From Oidiodendron maius Zn (lineage: Eukaryota; Ascomycota; Leotiomycetes; Myxotrichaceae), in contig KN832894.1 in the NCBI GenBank assembly GCA_000827325.1, forward strand, positions 62,001 to 126,000: DNA of 64,000 nucleotides, given 5' to 3'. Positions within the stretch are counted from its first letter, which is position 1, and each line of letters starts with the position of its first letter. Made by a program: the position numbers and the translations under genes. Below, in pieces: positions 5,595 through 62,138 of this stretch. The notes under the pieces are model-generated. The model ran no database searches. It was not told the DNA's origin and was given only the letters and a program-made list of their open reading frames with translations.

Positions 5595-6621
5595 TTAAAG
5601 CTTATTGGTTCTCTGTTCCCGAGACTCCTCTCGATGGGTAACGTTGAGAGGCGCCCACCACGGCCAGTCAAGAGGGGCATCCTCCTTCATTGTGCCTTTA
5701 AAGTCCGGCTCCCTTTTCTGCATGAAACTCTTCATACCTTCTCCACTATCCTTTGACCGTAGCATCTCCAGGAAGATTTTCGAGTCTAGCAAATGAGCTT
5801 CTTCTGCGGTCGATGGACCTCGGTACATCAAGTCACGCATTACCTTCGTGCTCACGATCGACGTTTGCGCTGCAATCTCTGTAGCAATGGCTAACGCTCG
5901 AGAAACTGTATCCTCGGGTGTCGGAAGCAGTTCTGAGAACAGTTGAGTGAGCAGCGGATCCGATGCAGTATATGTGGCACCGGTGGTCACCAGGTGCAGC
6001 GCGCGCGACATCCCTACCAGTCTGGGGAGAAAATAGGAACTGGCGGCCTCCATAGTGAGACCGCGCCGAGCAAATGCAAAGCTGATTTTTGCACTTAAAT
6101 AGGCAATGCGGATCGTGGCGGGAAGTGTAAATGTTATCCCAAACCCTGCGGCTGGCCCGTTGATGGCAATAATTGTCGGTTTCTGACAATTGTGCACTGC
6201 TAGTGTTACCCTGCCACCACTAAGATAGAAATCAGAACATGTTCCAGATCATGAGGAAATATAGCGCAGCTAAGTAGGGAAGAACATACCCGTCTCTGTA
6301 CGAATTTATACTTGATGGACCCCCGTCCAGCGTTTTCAGAATCTTAGAGAATCCAGCCTCAAGGTCGGCGCCGACACAGAAAGCTTTTCCAGTCCCGGTG
6401 ACCACGACTGCCTTGATGCGATCATCGGCGTTGAAATATTCATATGCAGTCACCAGTTCTTCAATCATCTGCTCGGTGACAGCGTTGAACTTTTGTGGTC
6501 GATTCAGCTTCAGTAGGAGTACTGGGGTGGGCGTGGGCGACGAGACTGGGACGTGAGAAATCGAAATATCCTTGAAAGGGAGTGACGAGTAAGAAGCTGG
6601 CAGAGGAGTGGATGTTTCCAT
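5595..6621 (-). CDS. Enoyl-CoA hydratase/isomerase (crotonase) family
   Basis: Exons 6621-6290 and 6219-5595 on the minus strand (70-bp intron, GTATGT...CTTAG) give 318 residues. The crotonase fold is clear: LNRPQKFNAV near residue 40, DRIKAVVVTGTGKAFCVGADL (first oxyanion-hole segment) near 70-90, then NGPAAGFGIT (second oxyanion-hole segment) near 125 and FARRGLTMEAASSYFLPRLVG with the acidic catalytic-type Glu near 160. Members hydrate or isomerise enoyl-CoA in beta-oxidation. The C-terminal tripeptide is NKL, a non-canonical but plausible peroxisomal PTS1 signal. It is divergent from the MpaB-like gene across about 530 bases. No frameshift or missing core segment was seen. Confidence 0.88.
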
Positions 6622-7152
6622 CTTGACGTGTGACTGCTGCTATCTGCCAGGAACTTGCCAGAATAAGGGGTGAACAAAATATGCAGGGTTATCATCGCCC
6701 AACAGCATCTCTTTTGTATTAAGACGACAAACGCTCCACATGAAGAAGAAGCATGGAGCCCATAACCTCGGCCCGGCAAGAGCCGGAATCTTTGAGATTT
6801 CTTGGGTATTATAATCAAGTGTTGAAGTATGGCCCCAACAACACCTTCTCCAGCGTGATAGCCGGTATATTATAATCAAGTGGGTAGTAGCCTCGGCCAG
6901 TCCACCTGTGCCCCCACTGTAGCGGTCGGACTCTGACTTTGCCGATTGCTTGGCCTGACATTGAGTCCCGCACCACCTAACTCAGGGGATAGCCTAAACC
7001 GCCAACAATTGCTTATGTCCCGGATTTGACATGTGTGCACGATACTACTATTCACGAGCACCCAGATATATAGGTCATACAGTCTTCCATTCTATACTCA
7101 TATCTAAACCATTCATATGTTTGCTTTACGAGACTCCGGATCTTCTTTCGTC
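6622..7152. promoter_or_regulatory. Divergent promoter of the ECH and MpaB-like genes
   Basis: About 530 bases separate the two divergent starts, a layout that favours shared control. A direct repeat TATTATAATCAAGTG occurs near 6807 and again near 6870, about 60 bases apart; it is a candidate regulator site. No regulator binding is shown. Confidence 0.4.
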
Positions 7153-11120: not shown

Positions 11121-11702
11121 AAGGCATTACTTCTGTACCTTACATAGAAATGGGGATGGGATTGAGTTGCGGATTGGCACGACGGGAGTGGCAACTCGGT
11201 GCGAGGGATTGGACGCGTGGCTTGTAGAACCTTCTAGAAGAATGCCACACTACGCCACGTCTCACGTGACATATAAAAGGATTTAGGATAAAATACGACT
11301 CACGTGGCTGTAAATACAATATTAGGTAAGGGCGATAAATCCTTCCTCGCTTATTAAGATACGGCATTTTATGCACCTCCCACCTTTGTCCGGATAAACC
11401 CGGCAGGCAGGTTTCCTTATACTCTATATCTTCAAACTTTGGAGCTATATTTAAACATAATAGAAGCTCTATACTACGGCCCCGAATTCCGAGGACAGGT
11501 TAATAGTCATAATAGAATAGGGGGTAATAGCTATAGCAGCTTTTAATACTCTTAACGGGACGATTAATAGCAGAGCCAAACTGTAGTATTTTTCTAACTA
11601 CAAGTCGAGCCCTTATAGAGAAATAGCTAAAGAACAATAGCAAACAGATTATAGCTTTATATATTTATGTGGTAGAGATTTGAGACCCCTAAACTATAAA
11701 GT

Positions 11703-11747
11703 TTTTTCGGCACACCGGTTTTTTCGGCACGCAGGGATGGACGTTAC
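11703..11747 (-). repeat. Right 45-bp terminal inverted repeat
   Basis: This is the exact reverse complement of 2150-2194, with a TA at its outer edge. It lies upstream of the damaged transposase, in the orientation expected for that element's 5' terminus. Confidence 0.8.
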
Positions 11748-17907: not shown

Positions 17908-19309
17908 CTACGTCTTCCTGGCCTCTATTTGCGAGTAATAGTTTCCGTGTAGTAAAGCAGACCAGAAATTATGTTTCGTTTCCCCCCAAAAGAGCTCTGG
18001 CGGACAATTTTGAAGCCAGTCAGTCAGAGCCTTCCCACAGTCGCCAGGGTTGGCAGGCTCGGTGGAACCCTCAACAGAATAACACTGCGACAGAACATAG
18101 CCTGTAATCTTGCATATCTTGACATATTGGAGAAAGAACTGCACGTGGAGGGGGTCTCCGGAAACCCCGTTGTCACTCTCGATAAAGTCATCCTTACAGA
18201 TCGACTCTACGTCATAGTCACCAGTACTTATGGATACAGGACGGCGTCGAGTAACGGCGATAGATCGATCGCGAGTGAAGAGCGTCCACCAGATGCGTTT
18301 CCAGAGCTTCTTTTGGTTTTTGTTAAGGTTGTCTCCATTCCGGTGCATGCCTATGCTGTATGCTCTCTTTGTGGCAAGACTTGTCCAGTAGAATGCATCC
18401 TGCGTAATGTCTTCTGCGCAATACCATCCCACTAGTACCAGGGCCTGGATGACAATCACTCGATTGCCCTCATAATTGGCATCATATAGTGCCTTTGCAC
18501 GCTTGTAGAAAGCCAAGCCTCTAGGAGCGGTCGGGTGGTTCGCATCTATAAGCTGGCTGTTAGTGCAGACCTTGGACCCAGCTAGTAGGACGGCCTGCTG
18601 TAGAAGAAGAGAAGGAGGATTCTTTATGTTATGGTACCGCCTCATGAATTGAGTCTTATTGATAACCGGTATGATCGGAGCAACCCATTTGAAGAACAAA
18701 TCTACGAGCTCGTCGCGAAGTGATTTCGGGGGCAACTCGAAGGCATCTACTTGGTGCAAGATATCTATCCTTTTTTGGTTAATCTCAGCGTCGTAGGCGC
18801 CCTGGGGCAACGGATAATGAACCATGCCTGTCATATTGTCTTTGCTAGAGACAAGCAGATGTAGGCCTGAAGGTGCAGCGCCTAGGTACGACACGAGGCC
18901 AACCCTGCTAAGCGGCGCTCTTGTAAGCATATTCTTCAGAGAATCCGTATCATTATCAAGTAGATGAGCTTTCCGGGGCGTATTAAGCCTATAGCTGTTA
19001 GGCGAGACTCAAAAGAGGATTCCGGTTCGTACTGATCAGACCATTTTGCTGTCATGCCTCCTTGTCGGAAGAAGAGAGTACATTGTTGCTTAAGACGTTT
19101 GCATTTATTGCAGGGGGGTCCACTTCTAATATCGCATCGACGCTACACGGTCTTAAGCAAACTTTTCACCTCAATGGGTAGGGAGTAAATACTCTTCCTT
19201 GACGACACCCCTATTTGATAAATTAATCAGCACTTGATGCGCAAAAAGTTATTCCGTCTATGTCACCTAGCCCATACAAAAGGTATTTATATCTTACCTC
19301 ACAAGCCAT
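17908..19309 (-). CDS. Zn2Cys6 regulator, short, zinc cluster on micro-exons
   Basis: Exons 19309-19298 (12 nt), 19210-19193 (18 nt), 19142-19042 and 18994-17908 join in frame to 405 residues. Joined, the N-terminus reads MACEGCRQGRRRCD then SGPPCNKCKRLKQQC: spacing C-x2-C-x6-C-x7-C-x2-C-x6-C, a complete Zn2Cys6 cluster. The large exon carries the fungal transcription-factor homology domain: PVINKTQFMRRYH, LLQQAVLLAGSK, DAFYWTSLATKRAYSIGMHR, KRIWWTLFTRDRSIAVTRRRP. This resembles the CTF1/amdR-type group. Such proteins usually exceed 600 residues; here the frame stops soon after SALLHGNYY, so the C-terminal half is missing. The micro-exons are inferred from the cluster spacing; without them the gene would look like a cluster-less fragment. 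Confidence 0.65.
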
Positions 19310-20083: not shown

Positions 20084-23000
20084 TTAGCGCCTTCCAAGTA
20101 CATCCTCACCTCCAGCATTTAAGTGCTCAAACAATGATTTTGTTTTCCCGCCAGTGATCTCGGTTTCATATTGGCAGGCCAAAATTTCAGGGTCGTCGCG
20201 TTTTAGGAACGTTCCCCGGACCATTTCCTGAAGCGGCGTCGTCAAGACATCAGGCCTTACATCGGCAACATTCCGTACGACTTTTAAGACATTAACTATG
20301 CTGTTGGGTTCTTCCAGCAAGGTCTTGATGATATTTGATAAGTCAAGATCTCCCCAGCACTGAGGTTGAAGAAGGTTACGAAGAATGTGCAAGGAATTGA
20401 TTCTTTCCGTCGATTGAATTGGGTCATTGTTAAGGATGTATTCCACCAGATAATTAATCATTTCGGTGCGATCCTCTTGTATAGTCTCGTACTCGGACTT
20501 ATCTGCTGAAGATAAGTTAGTCATTGATAGAGCGGGTTAAGTGTCAAGTTGCTCACCTGAGCCCTCGCGCTTGTCTTCGATTAGCTGTTGTTCCCATTTC
20601 GAGACCAACCCCATTAATTTAAGAACCAATTCCCTGCGCTCATTCGGACGGCTTGAAGGGGGGGCGATCGTTCGAAGTGACTGCACAATAAGCGTGATAT
20701 ACTTTTCCCGATACTTGTAGAAAATTTTGGGATTGTTGGCTAAGAAATAGAAGACGAGAGTTTCACGCCCTCCTTCCGTAAGTATTTGGTGAGGTGCGGC
20801 TGCCCAAATAGGATTTCGATCATCTGGAGTGACACTGCACAACTTTGGCAAGACTGGAGCAATGAGCTCTAAAGCTTGCATTACTAATGCGCGAGCCTCC
20901 CGAAGATCCGATTCCAGAAGAGAAATGTAGACCGTTTGGATAATCTCGACTGGCACTTCATAATGTGCAACGCAATAACCAACGACGACATGAGCGGCAT
21001 GTTTGATGAGAATATCCTCACGCCGAATATATTTCCAGCAAAATTCGATGATATCCGGCCACATATCATGGAGAATTGGAGGACAGTACTTAACAAGCAT
21101 AGCAGTCAACTGAAGCACCTCCATTGTGGTACGATCGATACCTGGCTGTGTTAAATCATCGTCTGGACTGCCGACGCCGACCTTCCAAATCTTTGCACGA
21201 ATCGATTCAATCATAGCTTTATCCACTAGCCGGGGACTCTCGGAGCTTTCCTGCTTCGAATTCCGCCGGATGATAGGATGAACAATGTTGCGTATCAAAA
21301 AAGTCTTACTCTTCTGAGATGCAGTCGCATATGCCTCTATGCTCTGCATCACAAAGATTTTCCTGAATTGGATAGACTTTTCGCAGATAATGTATCGATG
21401 GATATATATACAAAGCGGGTGAGTTTCAGAGAAGTCATTTGTCGTCACAGATTCAACGAGGCGGAGAAGATCGTCCAAGCCTACAGGATGGTGGTATTCC
21501 AAGAACTTTGCGAAGATATCCATTAACTGTTCGCTAGCTTGCTCGGCCGCAAGATGTGATGGAAGGGATTTTTTTCGCACATGGGCTTCCAGGTTTTCGC
21601 CCACTCTCTTGAACCAAATGCTATCAATTTTCCCCATCCAATCTCTCTTTCCTTCCAACTGGCAGAGCGAGTGCATGATATGAATAGAGCTAATCATGGT
21701 TTGAGTGCCGTTTTCGGCACATTTGATCAGTATTTCAACATTTTCTCCGGCGACCTTCCGGAGCGGTTCACTGTTGGGATGTTCTAGAGTCTGGGCAAAG
21801 AAACGTCCATATTTTTGCACCTCGATCTTGCGATATAGAAGAGAGCAGAACTCTTCAGGGAAAAAATTCCAGAACTTGTATAGTTTGGCTCGCAAAGTGT
21901 TATTCCGAGTTCTGTGAACCGCTTCTTCGATATCAAGTAGCGCATCGATAGTTATCATAACGGAAGTTTCCATACAGTAGTCAGATGTGGCTGCGAAGAT
22001 GAGTTGCTGGAAAGGTCGAATTAATCTCATGCATAGCCAAGCTCGTACTCCACCTCCCCAAGTTTCACGCCTCTTATTTGGGTTATCCAATATCGTATCA
22101 ATAACGATCTTAACGGAGTGTTGTATGCAGAGGCTGGACGTGACTGCGAAGATGGGTTTTTGAAATGGTAAAATTAAGCTCTTGCATAGCCCAGCCAGGA
22201 ACGGACTATTCCGAGTTCCAAGAGTTCTGAGAGACCCCTTTTCCAAATCTGGCGGCTCGTCATGGATCCTCTCATAGGAGGGCTTCGTGTGGAAGATTAA
22301 CCTGGCTCTTAGTTTGATTGCTTGGAAAAACTGAGCTTTGCCTCCTCTATACTGACTTCCATGCTTTGTGGTATCTACTGCAGACCAAACGAGCAGATTA
22401 GCCCAGTCGCCAGTGTGCATGTCGAAGAACGGTTCGAGATCATTCATCTGCTTATACCGTTGAATGAGTGCGGGTAATATGTCTGGCAGTTCTGGGAAAC
22501 GATCTAGAGCTGATTGAATATCGTCAGAGAAGATTTCGTGTAATGTCGTTGGACCGATGCAGAGGAAGACGGACACAAGAGTCTTGGCCCAATGGTTTTT
22601 GAGATTGGAACGCAAAATATAGCTCTCGGCTATCAATTCAAGGGGGTTAGTGTATTGCGACTTGGTCGTGGCATTCTTATAATATCTTAAGAGGTTGGCC
22701 GCCCCACGAAACACTTTGCTAAAAACCTGAACCTCCTCCGCAATGAATCTGTATGGGCCAATTGGTGATCCGGCAGAGCATTCCTTCAGCACGTCGAAAA
22801 TACTCTTCAAGCCGCCCATAATGTCCTCAAACAACGTCTCGTTGTCAGCCACTAGATGAACCCCGCAACCTTGAGGATCCCTCTTGATTGGCTTGGCTAT
22901 GTCTGCCAGATAGTTGTCGGGAGAAGCACCGCTAAACTTCTGCATATATTGCCGGTTCATGGTAGCGAACTTTTCTCCAATCACACCGAGAATCATGATA

Positions 23001-24363
23001 AGGCAGTGGCGGGCTTTAACCTTGTTGGGCATCTTTGCAATAGAGATGGTTATTGTCAGCAGAAGCTTGACGCTCATTCTTTGAAGGTTGGTTGCCAGAA
23101 AGCCGTCCTGTAAACTCTTGGCGTAGACCTCTACCACCTTCTGAATTTGAGGGCCATTAAGAGTATCTCGCATGCAGGTGATGAAATCAGCCACCATATT
23201 CAATGCATGAAGTCGTAGAGTCTGGATAGCAGTCAGGCTGTCACCAATCAATATCCGCTCATCGAGTAATTCATCAAACTTCTTCATGAATATCGCTCTG
23301 TGGCTCTGATTTATAATACCTCTGGTCGTCCTCAAAAGTTCTATTCGTACATCCAACATCTCGCCGGAGCAATCTTTCAGTAGTCCGATTATTCTATCGG
23401 GTAGAATGGATAGCAGATCGTTGAGCTCGGTGAGTTGGGCAAGCTGTGACTCAGGGCCTTCAAGCAGATGTGCAAGAAGGCTTAAAGTATTAACTTGTGT
23501 CCTAATAAGTTCCCTGAACACTGCGATGTCGATCTCTTGTGCCTTTGCTTTAAGAAGGAGGACTCTTTTGATGGAGAGGAGGAAACGCTTGATATATAGA
23601 GAGACCAGTGACGGGTTAGCAAGGAATATTGATTTGGCAATGATGGGAAACAGTGCAAAGACCTTGAAAGAAGTCATTGCTTTCGGGGTAGTTTGCCGTT
23701 GTAGACCTAAACTAAGGTCAGAAATAGATTCAACTGATGAACCTTGCTGAGGGGAGCTTTTTTGCTTCTGGGAGCCTGCTTGTGGCGGTATTCCAGGTAT
23801 AGAGTTACAGGTTATCTGGTCGAACACATCTTGGGTGAGGTCAAGAAACGGTTTGAACTGATCTCCAAGAACTTTAGTCTGGTGTCCCACAATATTTTTC
23901 ATTACCTTCATGCATAGCATGGCAATTTCCTCATCGGCCATCCGCACTAAACCCGTCAACGAACGCACTACATCTTGTGCATATGGTTCGAAGGGCCCAG
24001 GAGGGCAGGCGGAGAGCTGACAGAGAATTTGGAGGAAGCAAATTCGAAGCTTCTGCTCGCAGGATTAGATGTTACTAATAGTTCAGCGTGGTGTTCTTAC
24101 CTTCTCTGAGTTGCTAGTAGAACCTAGTGGCCCTTTAAGGTAGTTGAAAAGGATCGGGGCAAGCTTCTCTAAAAGCCTAGCATATTTTTCACCATATACA
24201 TAGTGTTGAATGTTGTCATGAAGTTGGATTGCTACTCTTATTATAGTCTCGATATCTAGGTAAGAAAGTTAGGGTAGCAATCAATAGATCTGACGCTGGT
24301 GAGCGACATACCAGAATTGTCAGGGTCCAGTTGCTGCGCAAGGAGATCGAGATCGAGGGACAT
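20084..24363 (-). CDS. Tra1/TRRAP-related HEAT protein without FAT or kinase-like domains
   Basis: Exons 24363-24312, 24255-24101, 24052-20557 and 20505-20084 give 1374 residues. The N-terminal region follows Tra1, the activator-binding scaffold of SAGA and NuA4: EEIAMLCMKVMKNIVGHQ, KVLGDQFKPFLDL, then MTSFKVFALFPIIA, IRTQVNTLSLLAHLLE, DELLDERILIGDSLTAIQT and LIMILGVIGEKFATMNRQY. The rest is helical, HEAT-like sequence. True Tra1 is about 3,700 residues and ends in FAT and PI3K-like domains; both are absent here, as there is no further open sequence downstream. Around the middle, a segment with LILPFQKPIFAVTSSLC is followed by the diverged copy LIRPFQQLIFAATSDYC, an internal duplication. The frame is open with no stops, so it is probably expressed. 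Exon 3 acceptor is a CAG/GAGCAG choice. Confidence 0.8.
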
Positions 24364-25701
24364 GACGGCTGTGTATATTGCAGTATGCGTTGGAGTGTGT
24401 GCTGGAGTATGTGCTGGAGTATGTCCGCATTTTCCTTGGCGCCCGTATCTTATAGAGATTCTCCTGACTTGATGACAAGAAGCGTGGTGAGAAAAAAACC
24501 TGTCTCCGCTGAAAACAAGAAGCAGAGCCTCATTCTGACCGGAATAAAAGACGTAGTTCCCCGGATACAAGGTAAAATGTGATCACGCACACATGGAAAA
24601 CATTTGGGCTTATCTTCTGCACCGCCAATCATTTGTCTCTTCTTTCCCATTGGACCGATATACGGGATCATACTTCAGAGGCTGCTCAGCAGGACACATA
24701 CAGGCAAGCCTTGCAATATGTGGAACTGATAGCAGCCTCTCGTTGGGGGAAGGCGGACCATGCGTTATGCAGCTCTGGCTTATGACCTCAGCGTTAACTC
24801 AACTTTTGAGCAGACAAAATAATACAGCTCGATCTTGAATGGTAGTCGGCATGTCTTTTGCTGGTGTAGGAGGTTTAACGGAGCTCAAGTCTACGTATGC
24901 ATATAGCGGCACAGTACTCCGAGGGGCAAGTCCTAGCCTGTTGGAGAAAGTCATTCCATAGTATGGTGCAATTCCTCATGCCAAGATGGTGGGTCGGGGT
25001 GGTGTAGGTGAAATATCCGCAGGGAGCGGGCAAAGCGCTCTCCGCCTATCTCGGCGAGATTCAGGTCGATTATATGCACAAGTATCACATGGACGGCGAC
25101 AATGCAGCTTGATTGGCGATCATGTTTTAGGATGTAGGATTTAAGCAGAACTCTCGGTTTCCTCCCGTATCCTGCTCCCATCGTAAAGAGACCGCATATA
25201 CATGGCCTACTTTACTTGGCGCTGATCAGTGCGCAAGGGGCAATGAATCGCTTTCTTTAGCATCTATTGTACCAGTAGTGAAAGTATTGTGGATCGTTAC
25301 AGCAGATGATTCCTAATACCAATTTAGCCTCCATCTACATTAAAGGTTTCTAACTTCAAGCTTCAATTTCTACAGTAAATCCCCTACTATTCTCTCCAAG
25401 GCATTCATATCCTCTAAAATCGGCTTCTAAAGCTGCGAAATGAGATTAATGGCTGCTGCCCATCCATGACTTCACCCCGAACCTCCATATTGAGATTGTA
25501 CAGCGTTCATCCTCTCCAGACTCGAATGTCCGGGAGACACTTCTGAGTATCGTCGTATTCTATTCAACTTTTAATCGTCTAATGATACCTTCCCTTCCTT
25601 TGCAATGACTTCTCCGCCAGAAGCTCTTCTCTCCTCGGAGTTATCGGCCTCCAGAATACCTGAGTCTCGCGGTCGTTCGCAGGCCGTTATAGAGGAGGGA
25701 A
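24364..25701. other. Intergenic
   Basis: Near 24385-24425 there is a short tandem repeat of TGGAGTATGTGC in the leader of the Tra1-like gene. Elsewhere only short frames without features (for example 24951-25181). The last part, 25571-25701, is open in a second frame of the next gene. Confidence 0.3.
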
Positions 25702-36411: not shown

Positions 36412-37224
36412 CTACCTCCCCACGCCACACATCCACGAGGTCACGCCATGCCAAAAATTCAATAGAATGGAAACGCCCGGCTCGTCAAATCCGCTTCGCA
36501 ATTCTATCATTTCATTTCGGGAAACTTTTCTGCTCTGTCCACTATCGCGTATCGGATAACTGACTGCATTGGGAGATCGTTGCGCGTAATACGCCATGTG
36601 ATCAAGTGCTGGAGGGAAAGATACTAGGTTCGGTTGTGTCAATGCTGGGCCTTCTGTAGGAATAGGAGTTGGGCTGCCGTCCTTCCACATATTTCCTACT
36701 AGGCTCGCAAAAGCTTGCTCAACGCCCGTGCCGTCCTTTGCAGATGTCTCAAAGAATGTAATTCCCCATTGGCTCGCCAAGTCCCATCCTTCCTTCTCAG
36801 TAACCACGCGTGCATCAGATCTATCTTTCATAGTTCCGACTAGTGTAACTTGAGATGGTAGTTTCATATCGTAGATGGCTTTCTGAATAAGTTTAAACGA
36901 CGATCTGTTGCAAGTACTATACACAAGAACAACTCTAACAGAATTATCGGTTGGCCGGAACTTCATCCAACCATGACCGTACCCGCAAGTGTCAAGGAGT
37001 TCCACGGCACATGGTTCTTGGTCAATCATTCCCCTCTTTTCGAACAACTTGTCTTCGAGTGTGTGATTGTACTGGGAAGAAAATTATAAGCACAGCCTTT
37101 GCAGGAGAATACATTGCAGTGTTCTCACCGCGCTCATAAATGAGTTCTCAACGTATCGTGTGACCAGGGCTGTTTTTCCAACTGCCTGGCCCCCTAGCAC
37201 CACTATCCTGTTGGACCGGGCCAT
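36412..37224 (-). CDS. Divergent Ras-like small GTPase
   Basis: Exons 37224-37129 and 37071-36412 give 251 residues. The P-loop GGQAVGKTAL (residues 10-19) and the start IVVLGG are intact, the switch I Thr is in YNHTLEDK, and the G5 box ETSAKDG is intact. G3 reads DTCGYG in place of DTAGQE, so the Ras Gln61 equivalent is Tyr. G4 reads GTMKD where GNKxD is expected. The C-terminus is a long Ser/Pro-rich tail ending CGVGR, without a CaaX prenylation box. It therefore probably binds nucleotide in an altered way, or hydrolyses it slowly. The last 60 residues are unlike Ras. The exon joint (57-bp intron) lies in switch I, a usual place in fungal Ras genes. Confidence 0.75.
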
Positions 37225-37969: not shown

Positions 37970-40043
37970 ATGACGACTGTCGGTGGAATAATTTCTTATC
38001 TTCGACGGTATGATAAGAATCTTTCAGTCGAGAAGCTACTAAAGGATACGAAGGTGGGCAAATGTCTTATGAGGAAGGATAACCTGCTAACTCTACAAGT
38101 TTACAACTCTTCTGAAAGATGCCTTCGATTCCTTACCTGAACGATCAAAGACTGCTGTAAGGAAGGTAGTTCGTAAACATCGAAGTACCGCAGAGACGCA
38201 GACGTCGAGAACTTGGTGTCTGAACCCGATCCTCGAAGTAAAAGAAATTGGTCTGCCTGACGAGGTGCGAGAGATATTTAATGCTTGTAAAGCAAACCCA
38301 TCAAGATTTTGGAACACCCTCGGACACCAGCTGGACGTTACAGAAAATGATAGAGAATCAACCGGGCGTACTGATCTTATCGTTGTCCTCGCACAAGCCT
38401 ACCATGATCTCAAGGGACTTAGCACGAGACGGATATGGGATGCCGTTATCTGGAGATTTTACACAATCTTCTTCTACGAACTTGCTATGCTGTTAGGTGA
38501 TGGTAGTAGCCTCATTACTATTAACAGTCTCGACCGGCTTTTGGAAGCACTTACATCCTCGTCAGCGATTAACGATGGCCGTGAGACAATCAGCAATAAT
38601 CTAAAGAAATGGACTGCTGTCGGATCCAGATATTATAGATTGAGCTCGTCTTTGAGCGCTGGCGCACTGTTTTTACTTCCGCACTTGACGGATAATACGT
38701 ATGTTACCTCCTTCCATAATCGAGTGCCCTGCTTATAGTTAGGTGGGAGCATGCATCATTAACCGGCTTGATTTATAACAAGGCAATTGAGCATCTCATC
38801 GACTGCAAGATCAGCCAACTTTCAAAGGATATTGGGGCCGATGAGCTCGCTCTAGAAATCCGAGCAGCTTCTCTCGAACCTTTTCGATGGAACACCGCAG
38901 GGCTACGCTTGAATGGTGGGGTTTCTGAAACCCCCGGAAATTCTACCGTTGAAACAATAACCTTCGACGCGCAAGGCTATCATGAGTCTCAAACTGATAA
39001 TACACACGGTGAGGATCACAGTGACCATTCTTGATATATCTGACAGGAGACAAAAGATGATAGAATTAATATTCTCTGTGAGGCAGCAGCCCAAGCAAAC
39101 GAAACCGAGCAATTGTCTGGTATGTTGGTGCTCTTTCCATTCGTGGCCTATTACCCTTTTAGACCTGACTAACCTCAGTTCCAGGCAAGGAGCAGTCCAG
39201 CGTCCCAAGCACAACTTATGATCACCCTATATTAGAACAATATACAACCACAAGCCAGCAAGCCTCTGGGGGGGATTTAAACGCAATGAACTCAAATATT
39301 GCACAGTCGATCTCAAATCAAAATCTAGAAGGTGAGTTAGATGTTCTAAATATTTCCAAACAAACCTAAATCTATCAGATCAAGATTCAAGAGATTTCTG
39401 GCGGACTTCCTGGAACACCGCTGTTGATGCAATTCCTCGGAACGAAACTCTCATCTGGGAAACCGCTGTTGATGCCCACCCTCCAAACCAAAATCTCTGG
39501 AACACCGCTGTTGATGCTCTTCCTCCAAATCAAAACCTCGAGTGGAACACCGCTGTTGATGCCCACCCTCCGAACCAAAGTCTCTGGAACACCGCTGTTG
39601 ATGCTCTTCCTCCAAATCAAAACCTCGAGTGGAACACCGCTGTTGATGCCCACCCTCCGAACCAAAGTCTCTGGAACACCACTGTTGATTCTCTTCCTCC
39701 AAATCAAAACCTCGATTGGAATACCGCTGTTGATGCTCTTCCTCCGAACCAAACCTTCGTCTGGGAAGCCACTACTCATGCTCTTCCTTCGAATCCTACC
39801 TCCTTCAATGTTCCCCCATTGGCCTAAGCTCCCAGTAGCTACCACGCCCTGAATACTAGGCAGAGAACTTCTGGTTCTATAGACACATCTTCTGTGAGTT
39901 GTACATATGAGCCAACTTTCACTGCCGTGCCTGATATTGTTGCCGAACTGGTAGGTATGGAGAGCATCGATCCCGACACCGGGAGTATCGCAGTCTTCTT
40001 GAATCGGAAAGCTTGGAGCTTAGAGGCTTTACCACCGAACTAG
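37970..40043 (+). CDS. Repeat-containing unknown protein with in-frame stop before the last 71 codons
   Basis: Exons 37970-38053, 38100-38698, 38743-39008, 39057-39119, 39185-39331 and 39379 onward join in frame. A helical domain comes first (VEKLLKDTKFTTLLKDAFD, VREIFNACKANPSRFWNTL, RRIWDAVIWRFYTIFFYEL, ISNNLKKWTAVGSRYYR), then a polar linker, then nine units of WNTAVDALPPNQNLE / WNTAVDAHPPNQSL. The frame meets TAA at 39825-39827 (535 residues), yet the same frame stays open for another 71 codons, with good protein-like sequence (SIDTSSVSCTYEPTF, VPDIVAELVGMESIDPDTG), to TAG at 40041-40043. So a single nonsense change, perhaps CAA to TAA, or stop readthrough. No known family. Confidence 0.6.
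39411..39806 (+). repeat. Coding minisatellite, 42/45-bp units in an 87-bp dimer
   Basis: TGG codons opening each unit fall at 39411, 39456, 39498, 39543, 39585, 39630, 39672, 39717 and 39762. Spacing alternates 45/42, so the true unit of expansion is 87 bp (29 residues). The central dimers are nearly identical and the ends diverged, as in recent unequal crossing-over. All lengths are multiples of three. Confidence 0.9.
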
Positions 40044-41858: not shown

Positions 41859-42788
41859 TCACTTGCGAGCGGCATTACTATCAATAACTTTATTCGCGTG
41901 CAAGAACGCTTCGCACTCCCGAAGTCGGAGCCCCAGCTCTTGGTCGTCCACAATCGGTATGTCTTGGAAAACAGTACTCAAGTCTCTCGTAATGACATGG
42001 TCGAGCTCGGCGATTGAGCAGTATGTCTTTCGCCAGCAATTTTGAATGACCTCACCCAAAAATACACCATTTGTTGACGGAAAATCATTCCGGAAGAACC
42101 TCTGCACTTGATCTACTGCGTCTTGCAGAGGTTCAATCCCTGTTCCAATTGTAAAGATACAAGATCCGATGGCTAACTGCTCGCTGCCACAGCTAGCTAT
42201 GCCTGGCTGGAAGGTTTTCAAGTCAGAAACTTGAGAGAATCCCGGGGTTGCAGTTCGGAGTCGTTCGCCAGGTCGGACAGAGGCGTCAAAATCGCAAAGC
42301 TTGAGATGGTCTTGGTTTGTTAACAGGATGTTTGCAGGTCGTAAATCGCCATGTATATATCCAAGTTCTTCTAGATAAGCCTCTGCGCTAATGAGTTGCT
42401 TGACCCAGCGCTTTATGACACTCTCATCAACTGGCTCCTCCTCACGATTTCTATTTCGGAACTCTAGTGTGGTCGTAAGGCGCTCGAGAAATATGCCTTC
42501 TGGGATGGAGAGAATACAACAGAGAATGTTTGGATGTTTGGATTTGCGCTCATTGAGGACTTTGTAGATCGCCTTTTCGTGCTCTAGTGAGACAATTCCC
42601 GCGGCATGATCCGCCCTATCATTTGTATGAGGATTGTTGTAGCAAATAGGAACCTTCACCACTATAGCTGGGTTAATCGCATAGACATGCGCTGTGGCGC
42701 CTTCAGCGATGAAGTCGTAAGGCTTAAGTGATGGGAAAGGTATGCAAAGGGTTCGAGACGTATCGAATGTTGTGGGTGAGCGGAACAA
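41859..42788 (-). CDS. Atypical protein kinase-like protein
   Basis: A single exon of 309 residues. The kinase fold is readable: FIAEGATAHVY (glycine loop, degenerate) with VVKVP (ATP-binding Lys) near residues 27-50, a helix C region, GYIHGDLRPANILLT (catalytic loop, HGD in place of HRD, Asn present) near 145-160, and LKLCDFDASVRPGE (DFD in place of DFG). The metal-binding Asp is kept. The C-lobe is short, with GIASCGSEQLAIGSCIFTIGTG where the APE-to-helix F region belongs. Proteins of this sort are frequent in fungal accessory regions; activity is possible but unproven. No extra domains. Confidence 0.8.
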   Translation of the reverse strand: MFRSPTTFDTSRTLCIPFPSLKPYDFIAEGATAHVYAINPAIVVKVPICYNNPHTNDRADHAAGIVSLEHEKAIYKVLNERKSKHPNILCCILSIPEGIFLERLTTTLEFRNRNREEEPVDESVIKRWVKQLISAEAYLEELGYIHGDLRPANILLTNQDHLKLCDFDASVRPGERLRTATPGFSQVSDLKTFQPGIASCGSEQLAIGSCIFTIGTGIEPLQDAVDQVQRFFRNDFPSTNGVFLGEVIQNCWRKTYCSIAELDHVITRDLSTVFQDIPIVDDQELGLRLRECEAFLHANKVIDSNAARK

Positions 42789-43593: not shown

Positions 43594-45170
43594 CTAAGGC
43601 ATGCTCGAATTCAAACCCGCAGGGCCTCTAACTTGTTTTCGGGGCCGGCCTCGCTGCCTCTTCTGCGAGGTCTTGTCCGGTATATTGGTTCCTATAGCTG
43701 CCTGCTTATTTTGCACTGAACGTAGTCTCCGCGATGCACTCTTGACATTGAGTTGTGTCTGGCATCGTGCCTCGAACTTCTCTATCTGCTTGTCTGCATT
43801 TTGTAGTAAACTTCGGCGTACTAGCGTCTCGTCCCAACATATCCAAAAGTAATCCTCGCCGTCGATGACCTCTTTGCCTGTGATACGATCGAACGGCCAT
43901 TCCTGGGTAGAATCAACTAGTGCTGATGGAGCGATCGAGGTGTCCTGAGAATCTTGATTGTACTGATCATCCATGGCAGATAACGCATGCTCGTGACCGG
44001 CTTGGGGCTGTGTACTATCCGTCTCAGACTGCTTATTTGCCCCACTGTCAGGTCCCCTGATATGGGACGTAGTGTTGTGTTCATGCGGTGGCACGACGCT
44101 CTCAGCGGATGCAAATGTGAGATGAGATTTCCACCGTTTTGCTGATCGTACGTCTCCGGCAGCCGTATTATTCAAGTTATAAGAGTGGTCGCCCTCCTCT
44201 GGATATCGGATTTCAATACCAAGATCCTCAGCCCTAGCCTTGCGGCTCCGTTTATCTTTGCATCCCCCCCTTCCCATATCACTACCATCATTTTTTTCTG
44301 CAATCCGGGGCTGCAGCATCTCAGTTGAGCTACGTGGCTGCAATAATCCGGGTGAAGTAGGTAGAGGCAAATCATTCTGTTTCGGATCCTTAGCAGACTC
44401 AGAGATAAGGTTCTTACAAGGAGCGGGGCTTTTTTGGTGAGTGACGTGGTGTTGCGAGGAGTCTTGGACGGGAATAGAAACAGGATCCTTATGAGACCCA
44501 AGTCCGAGGCTTCTAGACTGCTCCTCAAACACATAACCTATATCTTCGACATCAAACCACCCGGCAGAAAGGCTCCTTGGGTCGCCCGACTTAGTAAATT
44601 GACCTTGATTCGGGAGAACCTCACGTGGATTCGAATCATGCTCAGCACTGCCAGCGCTAGTATTACGCCTGGGCTTAACACTCTGCTCGCTTTCGGTGTA
44701 ATCTGGCTCGTTATCTTCAAGGATAACTGGTCTGTCTAGGCGGGATTAGTAACTGACTTAATATTTATAGAGACTAGGCATTTACCATGGGTTTCACCAT
44801 TGTTTATAGTATTGTCAACTTGACCCAGAGCTTCTATAAAATCGCTATTGATCACATTATCCTGAGGGCCGCTAGGATTCTTGTTATAACCTATATTAGA
44901 TTAGAAGGCATCCTTCTTGAAATATTTGTAGCTATAAACTGTACCTTGAGATTTTAAGTCCTCTTCCACCTGGAGAGCTAAGTTGTGCCTTCTGAATTTA
45001 GGTGCGCCGTCGCGCTTGGATGTCGACTCTGCTTTGTTTTGTAGCCCATAAGAGCTGGTTACAAAAGTAAATTGGCAGTTGCTAAACGGCTGAGTTTTGC
45101 GTGGCTTCTGTGTTGCGGGCTTGGACGAAGGCCCATTGTAAATCCGGAAATTATCCACGGACACAGACAT
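43594..45170 (-). CDS. Chromodomain-like protein with C-terminal AT-hook
   Basis: Exons 45170-44945, 44890-44786 and 44735-43594 join in frame to 490 residues (an upstream ATG at 45185 would add five). Residues 1-380 are polar and disordered, with basic clusters (CKDKRSRKARAE). Near residues 385-440, EWPFDRITGKEVIDGEDYFWICW then LVRRSLLQNADKQIEKFEA resembles the fungal chromodomain-like fold (W-xxxxIxGK...G..YY..W). A KRQRGRPRKQVRG segment near the end is a canonical AT-hook (RGRP core). Such a pair would bind histone marks or AT-rich DNA in the nucleus. It lies next to the 12-kb AT-rich block. No family name is certain. Confidence 0.65.
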
Positions 45171-46740
45171 TTTAGCAAACTTCAATGTTGATAAACCTCG
45201 TTTGCAGCTTCAGCTCTCGATGGTAGCTAAATACTCTAAAGAGGGGATCCTTTGATTATATAGTTGCCGTTGGGTATACTATTACGACAGTAAACGCAAC
45301 TCCACCATATCTCCGTTCTCCACTCTACATTCAGGGAGAGGCTTAGCACTTCCTGTCCTCGTAAGCAGCATTACCTGCTGCGCTTCTTCGGGCCCAGCTT
45401 CCAAATCCAGAGCAGGCCGCATGCCACCTACAGCCCATCACCACCTGTCCCGCGATTTTCTCGCTGTCGAATGGTCCCTAGTTGCCACGACTGACCGACT
45501 TTCCTGCACGGGATGTAGATCAAATCTCTTTAAAGCGTCAAAAGCGGGAATCTCGTCACAAAGGGTCGGTTTCTTGTATTCATTCCTCAAACAGTAGCCT
45601 TAGCACTTCAGCCCATCCTGCAGACCTGCCCAAATCAAGGCATAGGCCGCGTATGCAGTTGTTTTAGGAAGCCGTCTTGGCATGTTAGATTCTACCAATG
45701 CAGTAATTGCCACTGTGGTAATTCGTCGTGATAATGGACGGTCTCTGCCGTGCTACCAATTAGGAAAACGTTGAATTCGGTAGCACTTCCTCCAACATAA
45801 ATCCCTCGGGACTCCACTCTGAATGACTCCTTTTGTCGATCTGGCCCCTGGTGAAGGATCCCATTCGTATCTTTCTACTGCACTCCCACTCTCGTTGCCC
45901 CAGGTGTTTGTAGCGTCTATTGGCCGAAATACGAGCACACGGTCTAGAAATGAGCTCAAACCCACATCCTCTCACCGCTGCTGCATGGGCTGACAGCAAG
46001 GCACTTTCGTATTCAGTCTGAAGGCCAGAAGCATGTGAATCGACCCGGCATAAGTCGGGTCGTCGGACTGTCACCCTTTTACTCCACACCTCAACCTGCC
46101 TGGTGCCAAATCAATGCCCTTTCATATCCTTGCGTGGTATTATCATTTTCGGTCAGTGGATTCAATCAGAAGCACTGCAAGACATCCGAGGCAATAAGTT
46201 GTATGCCAACCGCCGGATGAGGGGCAGATTGGTTCCGTGCGATTGTCGCAGACTGTCGGTGAGTCCGAGAAGAGGGGCGGAGCTGAGAGGAACTAAATCA
46301 AAATTGACGTGAATACGAGGGAGATCATGCGATAGGAGAGGGGAAAGGGAGACTGACGAGCAACATGAGCAAATCGGAGGCCAGCTCTCGCCCAGGAGGG
46401 GGAAATTTGAGGAGTGTTGCAGGCAATAGCGCCGGTCTTTTATTCGTAATACAGCCGAGGCTGTAGGGCGGCACAGGTAGTCTGGCGGAAGGAGCTCTGG
46501 TAAAAGCCTGCGATACAGTAGAAGGAGAGGGCAGCGGTCGAGGTGGAAAACAGCGATGGATTTATACTTGAGGTGGAGTACAAGCGAGTCTATTTAGGTC
46601 GCCACAAAGCAGCGAGGGCGCTAGAGCGGCCACCCCTGCAGGGGCTATAAGCGAGGCGCCTTCCCTGTTCAAGACCCCTCTTTCTAGAATAGAGTCTCCG
46701 CCAACAGAAAAATAACTATAGTTAGAATAAGGAGTATAGT
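45171..46740. other. Gene-poor transition into the AT-rich block
   Basis: Ordinary composition to about 46700, then an abrupt change to AT-rich sequence. Frames at 45753-46089 (both strands) and 46562-46747 have no features. CCCCTGCAGGGG at about 46635 is a perfect 12-bp palindrome. Confidence 0.35.
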
Positions 46741-47308
46741 AGAACAAGAAGAGTTAAGTATAGCTTATAAAGAGATATAGGGTATATAACTAGAAATCAT
46801 AACAAATATATACTTAAGGATAATTAATAGCTCTAAAAGGAAGTTAATATATAAGGTATAATAGATCAGTATATAACTTTCCTGCTATATAATCGCCTAA
46901 TATATATTAGTGCTTAATAAAAGAACCCTATTACTATAGTAGATAAGATACCTTAAACTCTCAATTTAGCTCTATATCTCAAGATTTTTAGAGAGCTATC
47001 CTAATTTAATATATTATCAGTCTATAAACTTATAGATCTTAGATTATATTAAGACTTGTTATTATCAGTTCACTTCCTTTTAGTATTAGTCCTAATAGTC
47101 TAGTTTATCACCTACAAGTATCAAATTATTTTTATATAAGCTAATACTATAAGATACTCGACTGTTCTATAAGCCTAATACTAGAATATTATCCTTGAAT
47201 AACTGCTTTATCTAGAAGCTAGTCTACTAAGTTTATTACTTTATATAACTATTAGTTAGCTAGACCTAATATCTGTTAAAGATAATAGAGTAAACTCAAT
47301 ACCTACCT

Positions 47309-47500
47309 CCTAAGTTATATATTTTGTCCCAGTTATATATTTTATCCTTCTCTCTAAGTTATATCTTTTATCCCTTCTCTCTAAGTTATATATTTTACCC
47401 CTTCTCTTCTAAGTTGTATCTTTTATCCCTTCTCTCTAGAGTTATATCTTTTATCCCTTCTCTCTAGAGTTGTATCTTTTATCCTTTCTCTCTTTAAGTT
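47309..47500. repeat. Minisatellite of about 28-bp units in the AT-rich block
   Basis: Some seven tandem units of AGTTATATCTTTTATCCC followed by TTCTCTCTA, diverged by single changes (A/G, C/T), lie in a pyrimidine-rich run. Confidence 0.8.
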
Positions 47501-48629
47501 AGTTCAATTATATCAGAAAGTAGAAGCAAGTAAAAGAGAGATAAAAAGGAGCTACTCTTGAAACTAAGACACTAGAACTTAAGAGCTATATATCAAGAGC
47601 TTACAATAATTTATAACAGTAAAGTTCTAGAGAATCGATATTAAATAAAGGATACTATCTAGAATCAGCTGAAGTTATTAAACAAAACAGCTTGTTATAA
47701 AGGTACAAGATCCTCTATATCTATATATACAAGTATACAAATATATATACTTACTCTTATTAAAGAATATATTAAGATAGTAACAGTATACCCCTAGCTG
47801 GTTTTTAGCCTAGGTATTCAAAGCTAGCTTCTAGTTATCAATAATAGAGAGATTATAATCCCTACTTACCCTTTAGTAATAGTATACTCTATAACTAATA
47901 GTCTTTATATCTCTTAGACTAGTAGTCTATATTTCAACCTAAGGCAATACTACTATTAACTAGTAGTAGAAGAAAGGGGGTTTTCAGGCTATATCTCTAG
48001 TAATAGCCCTTATAACCTTAGTATATTAGGCTATACACTTATTATCTCAGATAGAGATAGCTACAATAACGGTTATAAATTCATTAGTAAGCATATAAAC
48101 AGCTCTTATAGTATAAGCAGTATAGCTAAGGATAGCAATATTAGAAATAGTAACAATAGTAAAGTATAGTAGAGTTATTAGGTTTAGTACTAGAAGCTAT
48201 CTACAAATTCATTTTCTATCTATAGTTTTCTTAGTAGTATTTTAATCTTAATAACCTTTACTTATAGAGTATTATAACAGAACAGACTTTAAAACTTTAT
48301 ATTAGAGTAGATAGGCACTTATATCAGTATAATATAACAGGTTAGTAAAGGTTATACAAATTATCAGCTATTATATACTATAGATTGTTTTAATAAGGGT
48401 AACTAATAAAGGCATTATATATTCTAATAGTATATCTATATCTATACCTACTAATCCAATTATATAGAGTATAACGCTAACCAGGAAAATCCTGCTTTAA
48501 TAGCTAGTAGTTATAGATACAAATACTAAATATATAAAGGTATAAATATATACTATTACTAACTATTATACTAACAGGATAGGACTTTATACCTCTCTAT
48601 AATATATACTATTTAGTATTAACCTAGGA

Positions 48630-49110
48630 CTTTCTTCAAGATTTCTACAAGAAGGTTAATAATACCTATTAATACTCTAACTAGCTAGACTACAAACTTA
48701 AGTTTATATTACTTTTAGCTAGACAAGCTAATACCTCTATTTTAGAACTATAGCAAAATCTAGCTATTACTAGATTAAAGCTAGAGATAGAGTAGCTTAA
48801 AAGTAGTACAATTCAAGTAAAATTAGAATTCAAGAGGGAAAGATACAGAAAGGCAGATAAACAGGCTAGCCTTATATATAATACTCTTAAGAAAAGCTAT
48901 ATACTAATCGACTGCCTCTATAGCTAGGTCAATATACTTCAAGGGCAGGCAGAGGTATCAGATATAGCACTAATAACAGCAGAGATAATACTTAATCTCC
49001 TAGTAATAAAGGATAAATTAATATAGCTTAAGGAGTAGGTTATATCTAACTATTCTAATTATATTAAGTAGTAGTCTACTTCTACTCCTAAGATATAGAC
49101 CTATTCATCT
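48630..49110 (+). pseudogene. RIP-eroded coiled-coil gene relic
   Basis: One plus-strand frame here is rich in Glu, Lys and Leu codons in heptad order (LKLEIEQLKSS-type segments), broken by TAG/TAA codons at places that fit Gln. The gene it came from cannot be named. Confidence 0.35.
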
Positions 49111-54429: not shown

Positions 54430-55510
54430 GAAAGAAGAAGGATAGCCAACTAGAATCTAATAATTACTAAAGATAATCTAGACTTACTTGAAAATAAGCT
54501 TAAAGTCACTAAGGCTAAATATAATAATCTTCTCTAGAAGTACAATAGTAGGAATAATAGCTTGAAAGAGACAGTAGAGGGATCTTTAGCAGGAATAAAG
54601 ACACTTAATAAAGTAGTAGTAGAGCAAGAAGCCAAAGTAGCTAGACTAAAGGGAAGTAATAGTAATAATATAAATATAGGAGACACTAAAGAGAAGATAG
54701 AGATAGAATCTATCAGGGAGAATTTAAGTATTACTAGAGACAACTTAATATAACTCCAGGGAGTACTTAGAGAAGCCAAGACAACCTCTAATAGATTTAC
54801 TAGCAAGTATAACAATAGAAAAAGGCTAGATATAAAGGTAGAATTCAACTAAGCAACAGCTAATTTCCAGAGTTTACTAGAAGAAGAATTAGAGTTGAAA
54901 AGGGAGGTAAATAAACTTATTAACTAACTCAAGAAGCTTAAGAATAAGGGTAGTATACTAGACAGGTAGAATAAAGGACCCCCTAACCCGAAAATTCTAT
55001 TAGAGATTAGTATAACTAGTACTAACAGAGACCCTATTAATAATATCAAGAGCGACCTAGAGGATCTTATAAGCCCTAAGATAGTATAGACAGATACTAG
55101 GCTTAGTCCTAACAATATTTATATAGAAGACTAGAGAGGAAAGAGTAGAAGACTGATTGTTGTTAGCTATAGGCCAAAAAATATATCAAGCTATAGGATA
55201 GAACAAGAATTATTATTATCTATAGTATTCATATATAATACAGAGTTAGATATCACCTTTAAGAAGACTAGATAGAGAGAAATGAAAAATAACAATAAGA
55301 AATATATATATAGCAAACCTAATAACCCAATTATCTAAGGCATTATATAGCTTGTTAATAAACCTACCTCTACTCTACTAGATATACTCAAGCTAGTACT
55401 AAAAGGAATATAAGAGGTAGCAAGGATAAAGATAGCTATCAAGGTCAAATAGACTATTAATAGTATAGTAGTTAAAAGCTAGGAAACTAGAACTATAGTT
55501 TAGTGACTCT
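54430..55510 (+). pseudogene. RIP-eroded coiled-coil gene relic
   Basis: A single plus-strand frame is readable over about 1 kb, with an open island at 54562-54753 (KETVEGSLAGIKTLNKV, VEQEAKVARLKG) and further heptad-rich stretches (LLEEELELKREVNKL) between scattered TAA/TAG codons. The ancestral protein was a long, charged coiled coil. It could be a transposon structural protein or a host-type gene; family unknown. Confidence 0.4.
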
Positions 55511-56270: not shown

Positions 56271-56384
56271 AGCTGATAGTATAGTAGTATTACTGACCCT
56301 ATATAATATTTCGATAATATAATCAAGAGCTGATAGTATAATAGTGTTACTGACTCTATATAATATTTCGATAATATAATCAAG
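56271..56384. repeat. 57-bp tandem duplication
   Basis: A unit starting AGCTGATAGTATA and holding ATATTTCGATAATATAATCA occurs at 56271-56327 and 56328-56384 with a few transitions between copies. It is followed by a run of TAATATATAGGG-like words to about 56490. Confidence 0.8.
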
Positions 56385-59457: not shown

Positions 59458-59708
59458 TGGTCTCGTGACTTCACTGAGCAGTCTCCTACTATTGCAATAA
59501 ATTCGGCAAGTTGGCTTACTAAATCTCTTTTTAGGTCCGGTGGATTAGGGGGGTCCTTGTAATGTAGATGGCCCTCAAAATATGAATAGCCACCGCGATA
59601 TAGCTGGCCACCACGTTATAGCCAAGCAGAGTGCTAGCTTACTTTAAAACGACTGCACCTTATGCGATATGAATACTAACTGCATTTATTCTATATCATC
59701 TCTTTTCT

Positions 59709-62138
59709 ATGATGAATCGTTTGGGTCTAGAGCTTCTGGCATCATTAGAGCAGAGGTTTGCTGACAGCAAGATCGCTCACCTCAGAGGCACCGCACGCGT
59801 GCGATTATCGCAGCTACAGTTCATGAATCCAATTCGCCCCGTCGACCTTAAAATCGTAAATGCTCTCAAGCGGGATTTCAAAGCTGAGGGTTGTCTTCAA
59901 CACGAGGTCGACTTTAGCGTTCCGGCTTTGATTGATGAAGCGTCTCTCTCGTCAGCCTTGGCGATGCTTCACATTAGCACTGAGACATTCAAGGCCACTT
60001 CAGCTCTCAACCCAGCAGAATTCGAGCTTCCAGGCAATCTACAACTTGATTGTCTTCACGGCCAGCACAGGATCCTCGCTGCTGCCGAGTTTCTCCCCCC
60101 GGGCGATAGATGGTGGCTAGTGGATATATACGGAGACGGCCAGTGTATAAACTCCTCTGCAAGGCGTCCCGCTGAAGAATTCTCTAGGACTCAGCGAAGA
60201 AGCGAGACAGGTTTTTCGAGAGGGCCACTCCTACTCGACAAATTTTACGGATGGTGAAACCTTTCGCCAGCTACGGGTCTGTCAGTTTAATGGCGATAGG
60301 GCTGGCGAAGACCGCTGCCGAGCGCGGATCACCGCCAACAAGGAACGAGATCTTAATAAATTACTGAAGCGGGGACTACTCGTTAACGCGCTGGACTCCC
60401 TCCTGCCAATGAAAGGTCACTGGCCCCCCTTTTATCTCGGGTCTATGGATGTATTCCTCTCGATGAGATGTGATGAGGTGTGTTCGTCTTCCTCCTATGA
60501 TATCCGCTTACCGACTGTATGTTGCGTAGGAGATCGCCTGCTACATTGATCTGATACGTAAGACTTGGGGTGGGATTCTTGGAGAGCAACGCCCCTCTTT
60601 TCAACACGTAGATCAGAGAACCGTCGAACTAGTTCAGTTGCGAGTCCCTGGGGTCTCCGCGCTCGATGCCGCGTTCCTCAGGGGAAGTATGCAGTCAGGC
60701 CACTTGTTTCCAGAGATACGCGACCCTACTATGCGAGCCGGAATTGAGCAGCGTCTTCTCAGGATTGAGCATCCTATCCCTAGCATATATACCTTGTTCA
60801 AAGATCTCAGGTATTTAGAACCGGCAGCTAAAGCAGTAAAGGCTCTCCTCCCTGGCCTTGCGAAACAGACACTCCGTCAAAGCCTTCGCTTCATCTCTTC
60901 TCTTCCCGCAACTGCGGCGACGTCAACTTACTCGCTTGCGATTCAAGATAGCGAGATCACTTATACGACGATTTCGGGAAGTTTCCCCTATCTATTTGAT
61001 CTTGCCATTCGCCAGTTGTTCCTCTGTGCCCTGCGATACTTTACAAGCCCGGCAAACGTATCCTCCAAGAAGGACATGAACCCAGTTAAGCAGACTATGA
61101 ATGGCCCGAAGAGGTTCCTCGGCTTCAAATTAATGGAGCTCGCTCATCGACTAGGCTTTAAGATCCCAGAGGTCGACGAGATGCATCAAGACCCAGGGGA
61201 GAGGCTGTTGGCCGATATGCTCAATGGTCTACTGAAGGAGATCTTTAGATCCGATGGGATGGTACCAGAAAACCTGTCCACCTCTTTCCGAGAGTACCTT
61301 TCTAGTTCTACTATAGTGGTTGAAGGTAACCTGCAGCCGTCTATTACCACGCCTGGCGCCGGAGAACCCTTGTCCCGGAGATACAGACGTGGTTGTGGAG
61401 TAGCCCCAGATGATAACGACTGTCTTTATCTCTTCCTTCGCAGGATGTATATGCCCCTAAACGACTTCTAGAAGGGGGGTTATGGAATCAGCTCCTTCTA
61501 CATTAAGAAATCCATATACCTAGTATTCTTTGGGCCTACTCAAGTCCTAGAGCCGTTAATGTGGGGGGGCAGGTTTCTCAACGGGGAATGGTTCCAGAGG
61601 CAGAACGCCGAGACAGCCACGAGTAATAGGCCTGCTGGCGCTAGACAACTATTAGTACCGAATCCTAGTATAGAGCTGCTTAGTCCTGGCAATGCGGGAC
61701 CTAGCCTGGAGACCCAGGACTTCGGAGTTCCCCTTGAGGTATGGCACTTGTATTCATTAATTAAGATATATTAATAAGGCAAAACAGGGAGTTACTTGGA
61801 CTGATTTGGGGATGGTAACCTTCTAGTATGAAAATGGTCGCGTCATTAGCAAGGCGTCATTAAATTGCGACACTATTGAGACTGAGGCTAGACTACTTGC
61901 AGAATGTGGGTTTTCGCTTATGGATGAGTGTGGAAAACACTGGCTCTGGAGTCAATACTATAACGTATTAGTAGAGACTAAGACCCTCTCTTTGATAGCT
62001 GTAAAACCGGTCACCGATGATACATCTGTAGCTACTTCTCTACTAGCTAGGCCGGCGATAAGAAAACGCTGTCGTCTAGAGGTTACAGCTGGATTGGAAA
62101 GCTCGAATCGCCCTGATGAGGCATATAAAAGATATTAA
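59709..62138 (+). pseudogene. DUF3723 protein gene, broken by frameshifts and stops
   Basis: Successive frames follow DUF3723: ARVRLSQLQFMNPIRPVD, LDCLHGQHRILAAAEFLPPG and DRWWLVDIYGDG (59709 to about 60145), then after a frame change near 60150 SLGLSEEARQVF, FTDGETFRQLRV, ITANKERDLNKLLKRG. An intron (60478-60529) leads to EIACYIDLIRKTWGGIL, ELVQLRVPGVSALDAAFL, DLAIRQLFLCALRYF and FKLMELAHRLGFKIPEVDEM (to 61471). Another frame change leads to SFYIKKSIYLVFFG (about 61490-61774), then a last piece at 61800-62138. DUF3723 proteins are of unknown function and are known as frequent cargo of Starship elements and other fungal accessory regions. The two frame changes make a working product unlikely unless introns were misread. 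Confidence 0.75.

Follow-up and report, generated by a model that had tools for sequence, protein, structure and literature searches.

Two maintained, headless relatives of Tra1 in Oidiodendron maius, read tentatively as Starship-associated activator-docking modules

Can a relative of Tra1 persist without the head of that protein, and if so, in what role? As a rule a single, very large gene encodes Tra1, a protein that needs its head to be anchored in SAGA and NuA4. The question is raised by a stretch of 64,000 nucleotides from Oidiodendron maius Zn (the window; contig KN832894.1, here C25, C25:62001-126000, in a genome of 45.9 Mb and 58 contigs), in which a first-pass annotation made from the sequence alone had proposed a Tra1-derived scaffold of 1,374 residues, reduced to its HEAT part. 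The scaffold is real and under selection and has a sister gene on another contig, and the two headless Tra1 genes are genuine and maintained; the first-pass annotation had noted neither the deletion inside the protein, nor the sister gene, nor the Starship-type neighbourhood. In the literature searched, from which most subscription journals and preprints were missing, we found no description of a protein of this build and no report bringing Starship giant transposons, the DUF3435 family and Tra1 together.

The coordinates and length first given for the window gene were correct, and as had been claimed its frame of 1,374 codons contains no stop. The gene lies on the minus strand, 24363-20084, with four exons and three GT-AG introns; use of an alternative acceptor three bases further on would give 1,373 codons. 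Its parts are as follows, in window positions.

24312..24363, minus strand: exon 1, with the start ATG at 24363
24101..24255, minus strand: exon 2
20557..24052, minus strand: exon 3, residues 70-1234, with the Pfam families Tra1_central and Tra1_ring
20506..20556, minus strand: third intron, which has no counterpart in full-length Tra1
20084..20505, minus strand: exon 4, C-terminal part including the stop, whose counterpart ends at about residue 2245 of the full-length protein
22501..24363, minus strand: N-terminal block
23038..23338, minus strand: block of residues 308-408, with a raised ratio of nonsynonymous to synonymous substitution (dN/dS), including Thr361, the equivalent of yeast H400 (codon start 23179)
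21940..22501, minus strand: junction, residues ~587-774, in place of ~887 Tra1 residues
20084..21940, minus strand: C-terminal block with one intron inside, homologous to full-length residues ~1537-2245, the second half of the Ring
24364..24847, minus strand: upstream region, with blocks shared with the sister gene on contig C44

A Pfam scan of the large exon (exon 3) at E<=0.001 returned Tra1_central with 191 bits and Tra1_ring with 308 bits, against a cut-off of 27, and no further family. Ten distinct PDB sequences matched the window protein; nine bear the name Tra1/TRRAP, and one, 9ynu, is classed as Tra1-like from the way it aligns with the full-length gene. The short gene shares its first two intron positions with the full-length Tra1 gene, while the third intron of both short genes stands where full-length Tra1 has a coding linker containing PNAKKRK, and is perhaps coding sequence turned intron.

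A separate full-length Tra1 had been named beforehand as the thing to confirm, and an intact gene was found at C9:598514-586637 (minus strand), with three exons, 3,917 residues and a single open frame that runs for 3,846 codons. Another short gene, with the same four-exon layout and a product of 1,419 residues, was found at C44:44512-48931 (plus strand). Searching the genome with the Tra1_central profile gave four matches at three loci, and the C44 short protein used as query gave eight matches confined to those loci, in a protein search that scores the best candidates only. The short forms are only ~50% identical to full-length Tra1. When viral_contigs was scanned for relatives of the window protein, none was returned; the collections available for such scans contain no fungal genomes.

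In each short protein, a stretch matching residues ~1-650 of full-length Tra1 is followed by one matching ~1537-2245, which by alignment correspond to ~1-711 and ~1574-2220 of yeast Tra1. Between these blocks ~887 residues are lost, and ~187 (window) or ~160 (C44) residues of poor alignability stand in their place; the window junction carries an internal 112-bp duplication (22084-22195 and 21931-22042, 71%). The claim that the N-terminal part and some of the HEAT superhelix are kept therefore stands insofar as only HEAT parts remain, and fails insofar as they form two blocks around a deleted middle and not a simple N-terminal part. The Ring and Clasp are incomplete in both forms (full-length ~650-1537 gone), while Tra1-type HEAT Finger and Ring sequence is present, as judged by the Pfam and PDB matches. 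At the C-terminus ~1,670 residues are missing relative to the full-length protein, and since both genes stop where the full-length protein has residue ~2245, neither encodes the FAT, FRB, pseudokinase or FATC part, in agreement with the first-pass annotation as regards FAT and the PI3K-like part. FAT, the family used for the genome-wide search for heads, matched at three places only (C9, which is Tra1, C6 and C1) and at neither short locus, the absence of kinase and FATC parts resting on where the short genes end. The structure paper places determinants for Gal4, Gcn4 and Rap1 in the N-terminal half of the Finger, which contacts Ring helices H31-H38, and assigns the SAGA contact of Tra1 to FAT T1-T7 together with H41-H44. 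The deletion thus spares activator-pole elements and removes most of the anchor.

With respect to selection, the two short genes differ at 960 of 3,480 aligned bases. Pairwise comparison by maximum likelihood (ML) gave dN 0.349, dS 0.427 and dN/dS 0.82 (likelihood-ratio test (LRT) against 1: 4.9), with 0.998 in the N block (LRT 0.0) and 0.67 in the C block (LRT 9.9), and the Nei-Gojobori method (NG86) gave 0.296/0.545 = 0.54. Pairwise values alone were used because dS to the full-length gene exceeds 3, with synonymous sites saturated; free-ratio branch values of 0.57 (window), 1.54 (C44) and 0.06 (rest) are saturated, and the pairwise ones are preferred. No stop was observed, although neutral evolution simulated with 568 substitutions on each branch gave means of 16.9 and 18.0 stops (minimum 7 and 8, 500 runs each). 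Of 33 indels at the DNA level 31 are in frame, and the remaining two, of 16 and 11, add up to 27. The amino acid replacements have a mean BLOSUM62 score of -0.34 and are thus milder than in every one of 200 neutral runs purged of stops (mean -0.59, highest run -0.45). GT-AG is found at all used splice sites of both copies, and upstream blocks are common to both, among them one at 24781-24847 of 79% identity over 67 bp, a figure given with no statistic. The lack of stops, the in-frame indels and the conservative replacements indicate that the reading frame is maintained though evolving fast. On the dN/dS and neutrality check first proposed for it the frame is non-neutral, and the short Tra1 pair is a selectively maintained, fold-compatible open frame.

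Compared with Tra1/TRRAP, the SAGA/NuA4 subunit and pseudokinase of the phosphatidylinositol 3-kinase-related kinase (PIKK) family, the short forms are without the middle and the head parts listed above and evolve much faster. Duplicated Tra1 genes within one genome are likewise found in S. pombe (Tra1/Tra2) and in plants (TRA1A/TRA1B), according to published accounts; those paralogs are described as SAGA or NuA4 subunits, whereas the short copies here have no anchor.

Both short genes were found downstream of a gene of the DUF3435 family, facing them, and on C25 a further candidate Starship gene lies within the window.

C25:44574-45849, plus strand: DUF3435 candidate captain, start 37.5 kb upstream of the window gene, facing it
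C44:12914-14277, plus strand: DUF3435 candidate captain, start 31.6 kb upstream of the sister gene, facing it
window 59892..61534, plus strand: DUF3723 gene or remnant, with two TAG inside one match

The genome holds 22 DUF3435 matches, at 13 loci as grouped (12 above the family cut-off). For genes at random positions, the chance that two of two lie within 41.8 kb downstream of DUF3435 is ~1.2e-4, or 5.0e-4 for either side. The full-length Tra1 is far from this family, at C9:586-598 kb with the nearest match at 1,796 kb. A frame at C25:53145-53993 resembles FRE, which we take to be ferric reductase, with a FAD_binding_8 match of 5e-8 and Ferric_reduct just under its cut-off. Frames of DUF3723, some with stops, are grouped at C25:121892-129537 and extend past the window. 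Between them, PMC12134995 and PMC11623301 identify DUF3435 as the Starship captain; DUF3723 and FRE are given as common in these elements by the former, and DUF3723 also by the latter. The likeness to Starships consists in the upstream facing candidate captain at both loci and in the FRE-like and DUF3723 genes at one. A candidate captain gene of the Starship type stands 32-38 kb upstream of each paralog, so that the two are most likely carried, or once were carried, as cargo by these giant transposons.

Taken as a whole, the reading that we favour, tentatively and at somewhat less than an even chance, is that the short Tra1s are Starship-associated, anchor-less activator-docking modules, perhaps decoys. 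With respect to function, decoy action or re-routing is our best guess and is drawn from sequence. The short protein would fold as an alpha-solenoid and might dock onto transactivation domains or onto other factors that bind the HEAT part of Tra1, yet would be unable to bring SAGA or NuA4. By competing with full-length Tra1 it could dampen or redirect a subset of transcription factors, and these might be held outside the nucleus. The idea of a partial Tra1 that binds an activator and not the complex has a likeness in dominant-negative TRRAP fragments, which are laboratory constructs and not natural genes. As regards location, PMC5982823 describes yeast Tra1 as having no obvious nuclear signal and as possibly entering the nucleus with SAGA or NuA4, from which a headless form is predicted to be cytoplasmic unless it has another carrier.

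Several observations weigh against this reading. On the side of the protein, the equivalent of yeast H400, a residue required for Gal4 binding, is His in four of four full-length Tra1s (this genome, 9ynu, 5oej and 5y81), and is lost in the short forms, being Thr in the window copy and Asp in the C44 copy. It lies in the block of residues 308-408, which also contains the equivalents of yeast D397 and S404 and has the highest NG86 dN/dS of 11 blocks (1.06 versus 0.51 elsewhere; none of 200 random 100-codon sets was as high, a figure uncorrected for the 11 blocks viewed). The loss of H400 and the high dN/dS point to changed binding and argue against a simple copy-cat decoy. Tra1 has further sites for activators, such as H25-H26 (Gcn4/Rap1) and the head (VP16), and these are absent here. 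In a pattern scan full-length Tra1 has two class-I-like nuclear signals, one at residue 925 in the lost middle and PNAKKRK at 2033 in the linker, whereas the class-I-like pattern is matched once, weakly, in the window copy (KKLR at 69) and nowhere in the C44 copy. The ML dN/dS values of 0.998 in the N block and 0.82 overall are also expected under relaxed constraint.

Structure prediction, too, gave a result of low confidence. An AlphaFold2 model of residues 70-1234, built from a four-row alignment, was mostly helical, with a mean predicted local distance difference test score (pLDDT) of 54 and a predicted template-modelling score (pTM) of 0.39, the N-terminal part being the most confident and the junction the least. 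When folds were compared with this model, 842 of 1,000 chains aligned, and the 50 best rows were mostly armadillo/HEAT solenoids over residues 1-~535. No Tra1 was among those 50, chains of more than 3,000 residues, hence most Tra1 chains, having been excluded; as far as such a model allows, the comparison would speak neither for nor against a Tra1 fold.

On the side of the neighbourhood, clustering of accessory genes may raise the chance of the observed spacing. C44 gave no DUF3723 match, and patatin was matched on neither C25 nor C44 among 28 matches listed, its lack on C44 being a further point of this kind. According to one paper, DUF3435 genes are more usually solo. Little besides the short Tra1 gene is common to the two loci. 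Apart from the short Tra1 gene and the block upstream of it, only a weak enoyl-CoA hydratase match (31% over 70) reached E<=0.001 when the 259 C44 frames of at least 60 codons were searched against the window, C25:43001-47000 and C25:46301-62000. The last of these gave no protein match to any of the frames; at the DNA level three short repeats, of 48-205 bp, were shared. The two candidate captains are themselves distant, with one local match of 26% over 81 residues. Distant captains and so little shared sequence would require two elements or an exchange of cargo, and exchange between Starships with distant captains is reported in PMC11623301.

Among the alternatives, the one that survives best is that the protein is a neofunctionalised HEAT scaffold, which has abandoned activators for new partners such as the chaperone/TTT system or a factor encoded by the element; we regard this as possible, if doubtful. 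Where three full-length Tra1s are invariant, the two short copies share the same new residue at 15 of 170 sites in the N block and 19 of 110 in the C block, as would be expected of a new role, and the fast evolution of the activator region and the loss of H400 point the same way. That the kept pieces meet at the activator pole would be unexpected under random reuse, and speaks against this alternative.

A second alternative bears on the cargo claim and is compatible with any function: the short Tra1s may be host genes in a fast-evolving accessory region, next to captains that are solo. The solo habit of DUF3435 fits this, as does the position of both regions beside AT-rich stretches with signs of repeat-induced point mutation (RIP), together with how little else the loci share. 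It accounts less well for a facing captain 32-38 kb upstream of each copy, to which C25 adds the FRE-like and DUF3723 genes, and we consider it unlikely, though it deserves weight.

A slowly dying paralog, in which constraint was relaxed after loss of the head and the frame is open by chance or recent origin, would account for the N block having an ML dN/dS close to 1. It is improbable, being strongly contradicted by the lack of stops where ~17 per branch are expected, the in-frame indels, the conservative replacements, the intact splice sites and the upstream conservation. That the window gene is a gene-model or assembly fault, a piece of the sole Tra1, can be dismissed, since there are three distinct loci and the intact Tra1 lies on another contig and is only ~50% identical, and nothing was found in its favour.

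With respect to origin, the short copies pair together in the tree. In the joint tree this pair falls outside full-length Tra1 and the 9ynu chain (bootstrap 83; 92 with the C block alone), while with the N block alone it joins the full-length gene (bootstrap 72). Approximately unbiased (AU) tests did not separate these two placements (p 0.85 versus 0.19 under LG+G4, 0.85 versus 0.21 under LG+F+G4) and rejected placement beside 9ynu (p 0.016 and 0.020, respectively); under LG+C20 no placements were separated, and the 2,000 replicates used in these topology tests were flagged by the program as too few for AU. Long-branch attraction is likely in the placement of the short pair. As the tests do not separate the placements and such attraction is likely, we claim neither recent duplication, nor old duplication, nor transfer.

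As maintained headless genes with activator-pole parts, the two copies are an experiment of nature on where in Tra1 activators bind. Should the Starship link prove true, mimicry of a coactivator may be a means by which a mobile element influences the transcription of its host, which would add to the resistance, virulence and metabolic genes carried as Starship cargo. The strongest form of this proposal, in which giant transposons carry an anchor-less Tra1 mimic that sequesters or re-routes host activators, with an arms race in the activator-binding region, is a speculation that we hold to be rather unlikely.

Further features of the two loci were recorded. The upstream block at 24781-24847 was also considered as a 17-residue coding exon, against which nearby stops in both copies argue. 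At window ~45000-61000 (C25:107001-123000) the sequence is AT-rich, with a GC content of 0.28-0.41 per 4-kb bin and dinucleotide ratios which we read as RIP-like; the short Tra1 gene itself has no such ratios, and C44 has similar AT-rich stretches at both ends. A Fungal_trans transcription factor domain frame (17908-18930, minus strand) adjoins the short Tra1 gene and has five DNA relatives at 66-68%, two on C1 and one each on C14, C33 and C8. Perfect 45-bp inverted repeats lie at 2150-2194 and 11702-11746, 9.6 kb apart, with an enoyl-CoA hydratase gene between them (5598-6639, minus strand); the repeat occurs at 19 genomic sites (at most three mismatches), including five opposite-orientation pairs 4-10 kb apart, and is probably the terminal repeat of a family of DNA transposons. 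The window also holds a Ras-family frame (36415-37083, minus strand) and a protein-kinase frame (41859-42788, minus strand), possibly partial genes, and at 39410-39753 a tandem repeat with an 87-bp period, 4.0 copies and 91% matches, within open frames of both strands. Near the sister gene, C44:26597-38561 contains frames for a Zn-cluster/Fungal_trans_2 regulator, an amine-oxidase-like protein, a pyridoxal decarboxylase and an enoyl-CoA hydratase, and resembles a small biosynthetic cluster.

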